A stretch of 64,000 nucleotides of DNA, taken from the NCBI RefSeq assembly GCF_030930995.1, contig NZ_CP133217.1, forward strand, positions 682,001-746,000, given 5' to 3'. The stretch comes from Thiothrix subterranea (GTDB lineage: Bacteria; Pseudomonadota; Gammaproteobacteria; Thiotrichales; Thiotrichaceae). The notes below the pieces were generated by a model. The model saw only the letters and a program-made list of their open reading frames with translations. It was not told the DNA's origin and searched no databases. Below, piece by piece: positions 4,358 through 8,314 of this stretch. The translations under genes and the position numbers were made by a program. Every line of letters begins with the position of its first letter. The stretch's first letter is position 1.

Positions 4358-4531
4358 CTATGCGGCTTGCTCAAGGTAGGCACTTTCAGTGCCTACCTTG
4401 TTGACCAGCTTACGCAACTGGCGTTTGTCTTCCTGCCGCTTGGCAGACTGGCTTTTTTCGTGAACCCCACCCCGATTAATAAACAGGTGATGGGCGACGG
4501 GATTGCGCTTACGCGGCTGCTTTTTTGCCAT
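4358..4531 (-). CDS. Small basic protein, last gene of rtcB cluster
   Basis: A 57-residue, Lys/Arg-rich protein beginning MAKKQPRKRN and ending SAYLEQAA. Its ATG lies inside the 3' end of the preceding gene (23-base overlap in another frame), which suggests translational coupling. A ribosome site-like GGAGCAATC precedes the ATG. I do not recognise the family; the basic N-terminus would suit nucleic-acid or ribosome binding, which is inference. The coding 3' end contains a perfect 13-bp inverted repeat (4372-4400), so the end of the gene also forms a strong RNA hairpin. Confidence 0.6.
   Translation of the reverse strand: MAKKQPRKRNPVAHHLFINRGGVHEKSQSAKRQEDKRQLRKLVNKVGTESAYLEQAA
4372..4400. 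repeat. Perfect 13-bp inverted repeat, possible terminator stem
   Basis: CAAGGTAGGCACT at 4372-4384, a 3-base loop TTC, and the exact complement at 4388-4400. It lies between two convergent transcription units: the second deacetylase (plus) and the rtcB cluster (minus), within the last codons of the 57-residue gene. No U-tract follows on either strand, so it may be a 3'-end stabiliser or Rho-assisted terminator rather than a classical intrinsic one. Confidence 0.6.
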
Positions 4532-5465
4532 GAGATTGCTCCTGTGTGGGCAGTTTGAACCATTGTGCTTTACCGTGACGTTGCAGGTAATGCAGATAAC
4601 GGACAGGTTTAAGGAAGTCCGGTGCTTCGCTGGTGGGGACGAAGCAAAACTTTTTCGGCAATTCGGTGTACAAATAACGCGGCGGCTTGCCGAGGTGGTA
4701 ATAACGCTCGATACCCTTGAGGCGATTACCCGTGTCATAGCTGTGGTAAAACACGTCGCGAATGCCGAGTTCGCGGCGAATAAAGCACAGTGCTGCCGTC
4801 AGCATTGCTTCATCCCACACCTTGGCATAAGGGTGCAAGGCTTCGCGGTATTGCTGAATCTCAAACGCTTTATCCTGATACAAATGATCATTCTTTTGAT
4901 TTAATGCCGTTTTAACCCAATCGGACTGAATTTCTTCGATCAATGCCTGATTAGCTTCAAAATCAAGGTCAATCCGCGCCCATGCCAGCGTTTCTACCGT
5001 ACCGTCCAAACGCACAGGATGCCCGTGATAGGAAAATGGGGCGGCATACGGCTGTTCAATCAGCTTTTTGAGGTGCTGGTAATGGTCATTGGCAAAATTC
5101 AATTGCAACACCAAGTCGTAACCCGTGCGGCAGGTCTGTTTCCAATGGCGGTCGGTTTTGTCGTCTGTACCCCATTCATCCAGTGTGAGGATGAAATTCA
5201 GCGGTTTGTGGTCGCGGTATTGGGCAATAACCGCTTCCAAATGCCACGGTTCTAGCTGCCCTTTGCCCGCTAACGCCAAGGCTTCGGTGACAATCGGTTT
5301 GGTTAACAATTTGGCGTAAGGGGAACGGCGCAAGGCCGCAATCCCCATGCCATTGCCAATGTAATCCTTGAGCAATTGCAGCGCGTAGCTGTCCGGTGCG
5401 TAGCGGAACACCGTGCGGTTGCCGCTTAAGCATTCGCGGATCAGTTCAACTTGTGTTTTTTCCAT
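4509..5465 (-). CDS. RtcB-associated protein with 'EIQSD' motif, function unknown
   Basis: A 318-residue soluble protein directly downstream of rtcB (12-base gap) with GAGGTG ahead of its ATG. I do not recognise a named family for the whole protein. One segment, 'ALIEEIQSDWVK' (about residues 180-191), followed by 'VWDEAMLTAALCFIRREL' and 'VFYHSYDTGNRLKG', resembles the 'EEIQSDW' domain found in large polyvalent phage proteins; that link is inference. The tail is rich in aromatic and basic residues and ends KKAAA. The tight order rtcB, this gene, then a small basic protein suggests a shared RNA-repair or stress role. Confidence 0.65.
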   Translation of the reverse strand: MEKTQVELIRECLSGNRTVFRYAPDSYALQLLKDYIGNGMGIAALRRSPYAKLLTKPIVTEALALAGKGQLEPWHLEAVIAQYRDHKPLNFILTLDEWGTDDKTDRHWKQTCRTGYDLVLQLNFANDHYQHLKKLIEQPYAAPFSYHGHPVRLDGTVETLAWARIDLDFEANQALIEEIQSDWVKTALNQKNDHLYQDKAFEIQQYREALHPYAKVWDEAMLTAALCFIRRELGIRDVFYHSYDTGNRLKGIERYYHLGKPPRYLYTELPKKFCFVPTSEAPDFLKPVRYLHYLQRHGKAQWFKLPTQEQSHGKKAAA

Positions 5466-5477
5466 GTTTCACCTCGT

Positions 5478-6680
5478 TTAGCCTTTCACGCAAATGACTT
5501 GACGCAATGTATGTACGACCTCGACCAGATCGGTTTGGTTCTGCATCACCACGTCGATGTCTTTGTACGCGCCGGGAATTTCATCGACCACGCCTTTGTC
5601 CTTGCGGCATTCGATGCCCTTGGTCTGGGCTTCCAGATCGAGGGTGTTGAAACGCCGTTTAGCCTCAGAGCGGCTCATGCGTCGCCCCGCGCCGTGCGAA
5701 CACGAGCAGAACGATTGTTCGTTGCCCAAGCCGCGCACAATGTACGATTTCGCGCCCATGCTGCCGGGAATAATGCCGAGCTGCCCCAACTGCGCACTGA
5801 TTGCGCCCTTGCGGGTCAGGTAAACTTCCGCACCGAAGTGCTCTTCCTTTTGCACGTAATTGTGGTGGCAATTGATCGCTTCGCGGGTGGTGGTGAAAGC
5901 GGGCAAGGCTTTGCTGCGTTGCAACGCATCCAATACCAAACGCATCATTTCGCGGCGATTGACCATGGCGTAATCCTGCGCCCAACCGACGGCTTCCACG
6001 TAATCGTCGAAATGCTTTGTGCCTTCGGTGAAGTAGGCGAGGTCTTTGTCGGGCAATTGACCGAGTTCCCGACCCACATCCTTTTTGGCTTTTTCGATGA
6101 AATAACGCCCGATGGCATTGCCGACCCCGCGACTGCCGGAATGCAGCATCACCCACACGTCGTCGCTTTCGTCGATGCACAGCTCGATAAAATGGTTGCC
6201 GCCGCCGAGTGTGCCGAGTTGCTTGCCCCATTGGCGGTGAAAATTTTTCAACATTTTCACCAGACCGGGGTGCTTGTCGGTAATCACATCGAGGTGCTTA
6301 CCCATGTTGTTGAGCGTCGAACCGTTGATGCTGGGGCGTTCGTGTTCGTCGAAACCGGTTGGCACGCGCTGTTCAATCGCGCTGCGAATGCTGTACAAGT
6401 TGTCAGGCAAGTCGTGGGCTTTGAGCGATAACCGTACCGCATTCATTCCGCAACCAATATCCACGCCGACGGCAGCGGGAATAATCGCGCCGCGAGTGGG
6501 AATCACAGAACCCACGGTCGCACCAATGCCGTGATGCACGTCTGGCATCGCCGCAATGTGGCTGTGGATGAAGGGCAGTTGCGACAGGTTTCCCAATTGT
6601 GTCAGCGAACCGCTATCCACATCGTCAGTAAAAATCTTGACCGGAACCTTGCCCTTATTGAGCATAAAACTGATAGGCAT
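5478..6680 (-). CDS. rtcB: RtcB RNA 3'-phosphate ligase
   Basis: Joins RNA 2',3'-cyclic phosphate or 3'-phosphate ends to 5'-OH ends with GTP and Mn2+, in tRNA repair. With the start at 6680 the protein is 400 residues, normal for the family. Family motifs are in order: 'DVHHGIGATVGSV', 'VGVDIGCGM' (metal-binding Cys), 'LGTLGGGNHFIEL', 'HSGSRGVGN', 'CHHNYV', and 'SCSHGAGRRMSRSEA' containing the guanylated His. The end 'TDLVEVVHTLRQVICVKG' is also typical. A frame open to 6827 was not used because the extra residues are not RtcB-like. The ATG at 6680 comes directly after a terminator U-tract; only CGGGG, seven bases upstream, could serve as ribosome site. An alternative start is at 6665. Confidence 0.95.
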   Translation of the reverse strand: MPISFMLNKGKVPVKIFTDDVDSGSLTQLGNLSQLPFIHSHIAAMPDVHHGIGATVGSVIPTRGAIIPAAVGVDIGCGMNAVRLSLKAHDLPDNLYSIRSAIEQRVPTGFDEHERPSINGSTLNNMGKHLDVITDKHPGLVKMLKNFHRQWGKQLGTLGGGNHFIELCIDESDDVWVMLHSGSRGVGNAIGRYFIEKAKKDVGRELGQLPDKDLAYFTEGTKHFDDYVEAVGWAQDYAMVNRREMMRLVLDALQRSKALPAFTTTREAINCHHNYVQKEEHFGAEVYLTRKGAISAQLGQLGIIPGSMGAKSYIVRGLGNEQSFCSCSHGAGRRMSRSEAKRRFNTLDLEAQTKGIECRKDKGVVDEIPGAYKDIDVVMQNQTDLVEVVHTLRQVICVKG

Positions 6681-6716
6681 AAAAAAACCCCGTTGGTTTT
6701 TAGGCCATCCGGGGTT
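6681..6716 (-). terminator. Intrinsic terminator abutting the rtcB start codon
   Basis: On the minus strand AACCCCG (6716-6710) pairs with CGGGGTT (6692-6686), followed by a run of seven Us (6687-6681) and immediately the rtcB ATG. The 3' arm of the stem is also the only candidate ribosome site of rtcB, so forming the hairpin would stop transcription and hide the start. Confidence 0.75.
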
Positions 6717-6847
6717 TTCGACATGCTGCACACGAAGCACCGCATTGTTACGCCGGATGACTGAGATCAGTCCCCCGGCACAAGCGCGGGAGACACTAGT
6801 TGATTGAATTGCTCCGTATGTGTCCATTCAGCATGTTGGGTGTCTCC
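6681..6847 (-). ncRNA. Structured leader or small RNA upstream of rtcB
   Basis: On the minus strand the 167 bases before rtcB fold into several helices. GGAGACAC (6847-6840) pairs with GTGTCTCC (6796-6789) to close a 43-base domain. A second stem, GCCGG/CCGGC enclosing GACTG/CAGTC, spans 6779-6752. A weaker stem lies at about 6745-6722. The last is an intrinsic terminator (6716-6681). No tRNA-like T-arm or D-arm was seen, so a YrlA-type Y RNA is not supported. Read as either an independent small RNA or an attenuating leader; which one is unknown. Confidence 0.55.
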
Positions 6848-6912
6848 ATGTAATAAGGTTGATAATGGTGAGAAAGTGTAGCGGTAAGCTTGCAAATGTC
6901 AAGGAAAAATAA

Positions 6913-6996
6913 ATGGCGGATAACTTGACCGATAAGCCCAATATGGCGGATATTCCTCACATATCAGACAAAAATGGCGGATAATATGACCGATAA
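6913..6996 (+). repeat. Direct repeats spanning the start of the Fic-like gene
   Basis: ATGGCGGATAACTTGACC plus GATAA at 6913-6935 recurs as ATGGCGGATAATATGACC plus GATAA at 6974-6996 (two differences in 23 bases). A half copy ATGGCGGATATT starts at 6942. The second copy contains the start codon of the Fic-like gene, whose N-terminus is a winged helix, so these may be its own operator; that is inference. The first copy also opens a 23-codon frame that ends before the real start. Confidence 0.6.
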
Positions 6997-8314
6997 CACC
7001 GAAATACTCCTGCAAATCCTGCGAAAGCTCGACAAACCCGCCGCCATTTCGGACATCTTGCCGCATTTAGACATTACCGAACGCACCCTACACCGCTGGC
7101 TGGCTCAAGCCGTTACGTCAGGGCAGATTCAAGCCACTGGCACAAAACGCGGGCGGCGTTACACAGTCGCAAAAATGGCTGAAACCAACCTTCACCCATA
7201 CTTTTCCGCCACGGCATTGCAATTGTTGCACCAAATCCGGCAACCGCTCATTACCCGTGAACCTTGCACCTACCGCCCCGAATGGCTGGCGGCTTACCAA
7301 CCGAACCAAACGTTTTACCTCTCTGCCAGACAGCGCGAGATTTTGCTGCAACAAGGGCAACAACTGCGCGTGGAATTACCAGCGGGTACGTATGCCCAGC
7401 GTATTTTCAACCGTTTATTGATTGACTTGTCTTACAACTCTTCGCGGTTGGAAGGCAATACGTATTCGCTGTTGGATACGCAAAAACTGCTACTGGAAGG
7501 CATGGCGGCTGACAATAAGCTGGATGCGGAAAAAATCATGCTGCTGAATCACAAAGACGCAATCCGTTTTTTAGTTGACGGTATTCAGCGGCTCGACATT
7601 ACGCCGGATAATATTCGTTCCCTGCATTATCTGTTGGCAGATGGTTTGGTAACGGCGGGCGCAGCGGGGCAAATACGGCAAGATTCCGTGCGCATTTCTG
7701 CCAGTACCTACCTGCCAATGGACAATCAAACCCGTTTAACGCAGCAACTCAGCGCGATTACCACCACCGCACAAGCGATCACTGACCCGTTTGAACAGAG
7801 CTTTTTCCTGCTGGTTCACATTGCGTATTTGCAGGCTTTTATTGATGTGAATAAACGCACTTCGCGCTTGGCGTGTAATATTCCGCTGGTACGCCACAAC
7901 CTTGTACCCCTGTCGTTTAACGATATGGATAAGGATGATTACGCCAGTGCCGTACTGGTGACGTATGAACGCAATGATGTCACGCCGCTGGCAGAACTGT
8001 ATGTCAGTTCGTATTTACGCTCGTGTAAATTGTACAGTGTCACCGTGGAGGCGATGGGCATCGATCCGTTGCGCGTCCAATACCGCCAAGCACGGCGCGA
8101 ACTAATCCGCGCGATTGTGCAGCAATCCCTGCACGGTGATGCGTTGGCAAAGCATATACAGGCGTATACAAAAACCCATATTCCGCCTGAACATCAAGAG
8201 AAATTCGCGGCAGATTTGCACGCGGATCTAGCCAACCTTGCACCGTTTAACATTGCGGGGATGGGCTTTTCGGTGCGGGAGTTGGAGGCTTGGTTGCTGG
8301 GTTGTGAGACATGA
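6974..8314 (+). CDS. Winged-helix Fic-family protein with degenerate active site
   Basis: A 446-residue protein. Residues 1-65 form a helix-turn-helix/winged-helix ('TERTLHRWLAQAVTSGQI'). The Fic fold follows, with an N-terminal inhibitory-type motif 'SSRLEGN' (S/TxxxEG/N) and the region that should read HPFxxGNGR replaced by 'LQAFIDVNKRTSRL': the catalytic His is Gln and two glycines are lost, while Asp, Asn and Arg remain. Active Fic proteins transfer AMP to target hydroxyls; this one may be non-AMPylating, use another nucleotide, or act as a DNA-binding sensor. An alternative start is the ATG at 6986. Direct repeats overlap the start. Downstream is a small membrane protein. Confidence 0.8.
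   Translation: MADNMTDNTEILLQILRKLDKPAAISDILPHLDITERTLHRWLAQAVTSGQIQATGTKRGRRYTVAKMAETNLHPYFSATALQLLHQIRQPLITREPCTYRPEWLAAYQPNQTFYLSARQREILLQQGQQLRVELPAGTYAQRIFNRLLIDLSYNSSRLEGNTYSLLDTQKLLLEGMAADNKLDAEKIMLLNHKDAIRFLVDGIQRLDITPDNIRSLHYLLADGLVTAGAAGQIRQDSVRISASTYLPMDNQTRLTQQLSAITTTAQAITDPFEQSFFLLVHIAYLQAFIDVNKRTSRLACNIPLVRHNLVPLSFNDMDKDDYASAVLVTYERNDVTPLAELYVSSYLRSCKLYSVTVEAMGIDPLRVQYRQARRELIRAIVQQSLHGDALAKHIQAYTKTHIPPEHQEKFAADLHADLANLAPFNIAGMGFSVRELEAWLLGCET

Follow-up and report, generated by a model that had tools for sequence, protein, structure and literature searches.

Leader peptides and the described control of RtcB

The closest precedent for the locus analysed here is PA5471.1, a 13-aa leader peptide encoded upstream of armZ (PA5471), a gene of the RtcB superfamily in Pseudomonas aeruginosa. 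Full translation of PA5471.1 favours a terminator and ribosome stalling favours read-through; armZ is induced both by antibiotics that target the ribosome and when the CCA-adding enzyme is lost (PMC3516279, PMC12057347, PMC13041342). The described route of rtcBA induction in E. coli and Salmonella is RtcR/sigma-54 control, which raises RtcB when translation is damaged (PMC7790460, PMC12606134). In E. coli, both antibiotics directed at the ribosome and colicin D induce rtcBA (PMC12606134, PMC7790460). The first-pass annotation of the locus knew of no described leader of this form for RtcB. This holds for canonical RtcB, for which no leader peptide or attenuator was found in the open-licence literature, but not for the RtcB-like armZ, the only case found (PMC12057347, PMC13041342).

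The rtcB gene in question lies on the minus strand of a 64,000-nucleotide stretch of Thiothrix subterranea DNA (the window). It is preceded by an RNA leader and a sigma-70 promoter and looks independent of RtcR, a protein activator at the rtcBA promoter. This leader is very probably a ribosome-controlled (leader-peptide) transcription attenuator that would raise RtcB when ribosomes stall. The classical leaders of the trp, his and leu operons contain a translated open reading frame (ORF) with its stop beside segment 2, form a mutually exclusive terminator and antiterminator, and are superattenuated without a ribosome. The window leader resembles them in its leader ORF, the stop at segment 2, the exclusive folds and a predicted off state without a ribosome. 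It differs in its target, an RNA-repair ligase, in an extra tier of pairing (2:3, then 4:5), in a helix at the start codon and in having no run of key codons; a codon cluster for a product amino acid, as in amino-acid operons, is absent from the leader peptides. With PA5471.1 it shares a short leader peptide ahead of an RtcB-superfamily gene; control by stalling would be a further parallel, by analogy. However, armZ, an RtcB-like gene, has a release-factor gene linked to it, whereas the window RtcB belongs to another subfamily with a different partner family. It scores 141 bits against TIGR03073, the release-factor-linked RtcB family (cut-off 271.8), and no member of that family was found in the T. 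subterranea genome at E 1e-80. The window leader comprises six segments, two alternative on-state helices and the start-codon helix, while the PA5471.1 terminator is formed, by its published description, by segments 3 and 4. PA5471.1 requires Gln3-Phe4 in a cca mutant, and the window peptide has no such pair.

Anatomy and conservation of the rtcB leader

The features of the locus are listed in Table 1. Several helices and an intrinsic terminator with a U-tract ending at the rtcB ATG had been described in the first-pass annotation, and all are present on the minus strand. The terminator (AAAACCCCG...CGGGGUUUUUUU) stands directly before rtcB, its U-tract running right up to the ATG (6680), and a short ORF led by a Shine-Dalgarno (SD) sequence lies between promoter and terminator. 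This ORF, the antiterminator and the upstream promoter (6902-6875) had been overlooked. The earlier interpretation is partly supported.

Table 1 Features of the rtcB leader and the adjoining genes (positions in the window)
Feature	Position	Strand	Description	Evidence or remark
Promoter	6875..6902	-	sigma-70-type, TTGACA-N16-TACACT	10/12 consensus matches
Segment 1	6840..6847	-	GGAGACAC; SD of the leader ORF	can also pair with segment 2; swap test of 1:2 in text
Segment B	6829..6836	-	ACAUGCUG; surrounds the leader start codon	partner is 6721-6728; minimum-energy fold, swap test of B:B' in text
Leader ORF	6796..6834	-	12 codons, MLNGHIRSNSIN; its UAG stop adjoins segment 2	SD and stop position the same in 33/33 leaders, 9-14 codons
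Segment 2	6787..6796	-	GUGUCUCCCG	partner is segment 1 or segment 3
Segment 3	6768..6779	-	GCCGGGGGACUG	partner is segment 2 (on) or 4 (off)
Segment 4	6752..6763	-	CAGUCAUCCGGC	partner is segment 3 (off) or 5 (on); swap test of 4:5 in text
Segment B'	6721..6728	-	CAGCAUGU	partner of the leader start-codon region; swap test
Segment 5	6705..6718	-	AAAACCCCGGAUGG; 5' terminator arm	also pairs with segment 4
Segment 6	6681..6692	-	CGGGGUUUUUUU; 3' terminator arm and U-tract	CGGGG is the sole SD-like stretch for rtcB here
rtcB	5478..6680	-	RNA ligase RtcB, 400 aa	Pfam PF01139, E = 1.1e-129; homologues align from the ATG at 6680
Partner gene	4509..5465	-	318 aa, no named family; adjoins rtcB	beside rtcB across the family

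The promoter elements, TTGAC(A/T) and a TACACT-like -10, line up in nearly all Thiothrix leaders in the alignment. Judged from the promoter position, transcription would start at about 6868 and yield a leader of about 185 nt. The folding energy of a 190-nt leader RNA is -70.4 kcal/mol, compared with -49.6 +/- 3.9 for its shuffles (z = -5.3). Its six segments can be arranged in two ways: an off state with 1:2, 3:4 (a hairpin) and 5:6 (the terminator), and an on state with 2:3 and 4:5 (the antiterminator). In addition, the long-range helix B:B' joins the start-codon region to the stretch between segments 4 and 5. It cannot nest with 4:5 and should therefore help to hold an untranslated leader off. 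Rfam searches at gathering score gave no match in the window or at six related loci. A ribozyme reading, in which the crossing 1:2 and B:B' pairings would form an HDV-like pseudoknot, was dropped given this result and since the crossing segments make better sense as alternative helices; a literature search on RtcB together with ribozymes found nothing relevant.

By DNA search, every one of the 16 genomes of the genus carries the leader, as does one other genus, and it always directly precedes the same rtcB. Among named genomes, a pattern search gave matches in T. caldifontis, T. lacustris, T. fructosivorans, Ca. T. singaporensis and Thiolinea disciformis. For the remaining genera of the family, rtcB was located by protein search, and the upstream regions hold diverged forms of the leader. 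The layout, consisting of an SD, an ATG (GTG once) and a 9-14-codon ORF with its stop 0-4 nt ahead of a UCUCC-type segment 2, is kept in all 33 rtcB leaders of the family (7 genera) despite diverging sequences and peptides, the peptides showing no conservation. Within the genus, the ORF grows or shrinks in multiples of three and the SD-ATG spacing varies freely by 1-3 nt, the pattern expected for a translated ORF. The leader stops of the 29 distinct peptides are UAG (16) and UAA (13), never UGA. In many non-Thiothrix leaders (L016, L017, L058, L061, L064, L069) a GUCUCC resembling segment 2 occurs on the 3' side of the terminator.

The comparison across genera also bears on two earlier claims, namely that rtcB has no candidate ribosome site other than the 3' terminator arm and that folding would shut off transcription and initiation together. 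Both fit Thiothrix, where most genomes have 0 nt between terminator and ATG. In other genera the ATG is located 30-212 nt beyond the terminator, so that termination is the conserved feature and coupling to initiation a local one.

Beyond the family, leaders were sought with a covariance model built on the family set and a protein search of 369 genomes of the class, and were partly picked by eye. The same layout with unrelated sequence precedes rtcB in other Gammaproteobacteria, in L093 and L120 and less completely in L115. L093 (genome G294) encodes MHKSNKQQLT-stop and forms 4:5 from CGUUUGUC/GACAAACG; L120 (G094) encodes MFNSRHLNPLYF-stop and forms it from ACAGUUGUC/GACAACUGU. No claim is made for other covariance-model matches in the class with E between 1e-4 and 1e-2, several of which look like ordinary gene-end terminators (L131, L132). 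No DNA similar to the leader was found in E. coli genomes.

Several related arrangements were seen beside these. In G362 (L130/L138, C13) a leader of the same layout, encoding MIHLNPTPIK-stop, stands ahead of a PcfJ-like gene instead of rtcB, and in G251 a similar leader precedes a homologue of the rtcB partner gene. SD-led short ORFs (MKNTLLPFADLFS-stop and MQQLHLQYLFGI-stop) lie about 200-300 nt upstream of release-factor-linked rtcB in L133 and L137, reminiscent of PA5471.1. In L133 a stretch downstream of the short ORF is complementary to it; no clear terminator was seen with the short ORF in either L133 or L137.

Coevolution and folding of the alternative pairings

To analyse the pairings, native pairing energies were compared with those obtained after exchanging partners between species (20,000 permutations, four control pairings). 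The representatives are related species, and the permutation counts are accordingly not strict probabilities. Native and swapped means were -10.3 and -8.9 kcal/mol for 1:2 (45/20000 permutations), -14.9 and -12.1 for 2:3, -18.3 and -10.5 for 3:4, -14.1 and -10.1 for 4:5, and -19.7 and -13.6 for 5:6 (0/20000 for each of the last four). B:B' gave 3/20000, and the four controls had no native-over-swapped advantage in the full set. Restricted to the family, the counts for 1:2, 2:3, 3:4, 4:5 and 5:6 were 350, 672, 0, 0 and 0 of 50000, with two borderline controls (D5:T5, 0.026; A':T3, 0.0055). Column counts gave 89% paired positions and 33 double-change cells for the on-helices (2:3, 4:5), against 13.9 expected from shuffles, and 95% and 50, against 16.0, for the off-helices. 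When one partner was slid by one base, the signal was lost for on- and off-helices alike. Double compensatory changes occur at 6 of the 10 pairs of the 4:5 helix. The predicted exclusion of the terminator by the antiterminator is thus backed by coevolution at the sequence level. The covariation check on relatives suggested with the first-pass annotation has thereby been run with a positive outcome. The conserved ORF and the covarying alternative pairings agree with its reading of a regulatory leader, whose folding is predicted to stop transcription.

The effect of a ribosome was modelled by folding RNA made through segment 5 without segment 6, downstream of a ribosome mask; the time point represented by this incomplete RNA was a matter of choice. 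When the A site was placed on the leader stop, 3:4 (off) was favoured in 33 of 36 leaders, the exceptions being L063 and L075 clearly and L072 marginally. With the ribosome six codons before the stop, 2:3 together with 4:5 (on) was favoured in 34 of 36, all except L016 and L062. The mean on-fraction was 0.11 at zero and one codon before the stop, 0.51 at two, 0.88 at three and 0.92-0.95 further back, which places the switch point one to three codons ahead of the stop; for the window leader the values from the stop backwards were 0.12, 0.06, 0.68 and 0.99. L093, which was used in building nothing, was off with the ribosome at the stop or as many as three codons short of it, and on at distances of four codons or more. 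L117, also from outside the family, showed no switch. In the full-length RNA the terminator is thermodynamically favoured in 35 of 36 leaders even with a stalled ribosome, so the choice would have to be kinetic and made during transcription. The same holds for the trp leader.

The following sequence of events is proposed. RNA polymerase would begin at about 6868 and make the leader, while a ribosome loads at GGAG and reads the 12-codon ORF. On reaching the leader stop, the ribosome would cover segment 2, allowing 3:4 and 5:6 to form and transcription to end just before rtcB. A stall at least three codons before the stop would leave segment 2 free to form 2:3, and hence 4:5, no terminator would arise, and rtcB would be expressed; in Thiothrix, the RBS-like CGGGG would also be freed for rtcB. 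Without a ribosome, 1:2 and B:B' over the leader start codon would favour the off state. RtcB would thus be expected to rise when ribosomes begin without finishing, e.g. owing to cut tRNAs, damaged ribosomes or antibiotics.

Signal, rival explanations and gene context

A general sensor of unfinished translation fits the data best. Measurement of a single tRNA (tRNA-Arg in Thiothrix or tRNA-Asn family-wide), e.g. after an anticodon nuclease, with RtcB being made when that tRNA is broken, is a less likely version, for which we would allow a minor chance. An Arg codon (CGG, AGG, AGA or CGC) is found 5-6 codons before the stop in 17/17 Thiothrix and Thiolinea disciformis leaders, and colicin D, to which E. 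coli rtcBA responds, cuts tRNA-Arg (PMC7790460). The Arg codon is not kept beyond Thiothrix and Thiolinea, however, and Arg-specific sensing was dropped as the main model for this reason. Asn codons are in excess across the 29 peptides (47 vs 24.6 expected; present in 27/29), also on genus representatives (29 vs 14.8, P = 0.0006), but this may stem from a bias against purine-rich codons, Lys and Glu being depleted, some of the Asn codons lie too close to the stop to matter, and the enrichment comes without the clustering or key-codon run of amino-acid operons. Both specificities are suggestive only.

The remaining explanations dispense with translation of the leader. Alternative terminator and antiterminator pairings, together with the fact that RtcB is an RNA-binding enzyme, would also suit a ligand, such as RtcB itself or broken RNA ends, that binds the leader and sets the terminator. 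A leader that itself senses damaged RNA or free RtcB had been raised in the first-pass annotation, but this reading leaves the conserved ORF and stop placement unexplained, and sequence outside the pairing segments diverges freely, with no conserved unpaired aptamer-like core. We regard it as improbable, the comparative evidence (33/33 leaders) favouring a ribosome on the leader ORF as the sensor. The small RNA likewise considered there, acting in trans with rtcB merely downstream, would be in keeping with the strong promoter, the terminator and the stable fold. As it accounts for neither the fixed-stop ORF nor the covarying 4:5 antiterminator nor the linkage to rtcB, constant in every genome examined, a stand-alone role is very improbable; such an RNA may be a by-product at most. 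An ordinary terminator or insulator with chance complementarity is hardly credible: intrinsic terminators are common, and several weak class-wide model matches are plain terminators, but five helices coevolve here against negative controls, which already contradicts this explanation, and the layout recurs in 33/33 leaders.

A second rtcB in the same genome is 57-60% identical and lacks such a leader. It has a sigma-54 element (TGGCAC-N5-TTGCA), and an RtcR gene lies about 13 kb away. No sigma-54 promoter was found upstream of the window rtcB, the element occurring only at the paralogue; the window copy therefore looks RtcR-independent. Downstream of the window rtcB, the 318-aa protein (4509-5465) has no Pfam, NCBIfam or PADLOC match. 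Its gene adjoins rtcB throughout the family and also outside it; in L116 it stands upstream of rtcB, and in L129 it follows an attenuator-like leader. It probably belongs to the same operon, and its product is a candidate partner of RtcB.

The inducers and target RNAs of bacterial RtcB are only partly known, RtcR being the described route. The leader offers a testable second one with the ribosome as sensor, in genomes that also hold an RtcR-type copy. Broken translation could thereby switch on RNA repair, and the inducing signal should be readable from mutations of the 12-codon ORF. By joining canonical RtcB to the armZ precedent, the leader suggests that leader-peptide control is a general habit of the ligase family. 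More tentatively, and with somewhat less than even confidence, leader-peptide attenuators may recur at canonical rtcB in many Gammaproteobacteria, reporting unfinished translation (or loss of tRNA-Asn/tRNA-Arg) as a second, RtcR-independent induction route shared by linked genes such as the partner gene and the PcfJ-like gene.

On the other side of the promoter, ATGGCGGATAA / GACCGATAA motifs are repeated at 6905-6985, between rtcB and a divergent Fic gene (6974-8314). These repeats also occur in L005, are absent from most relatives, and possibly constitute an operator of the Fic gene.
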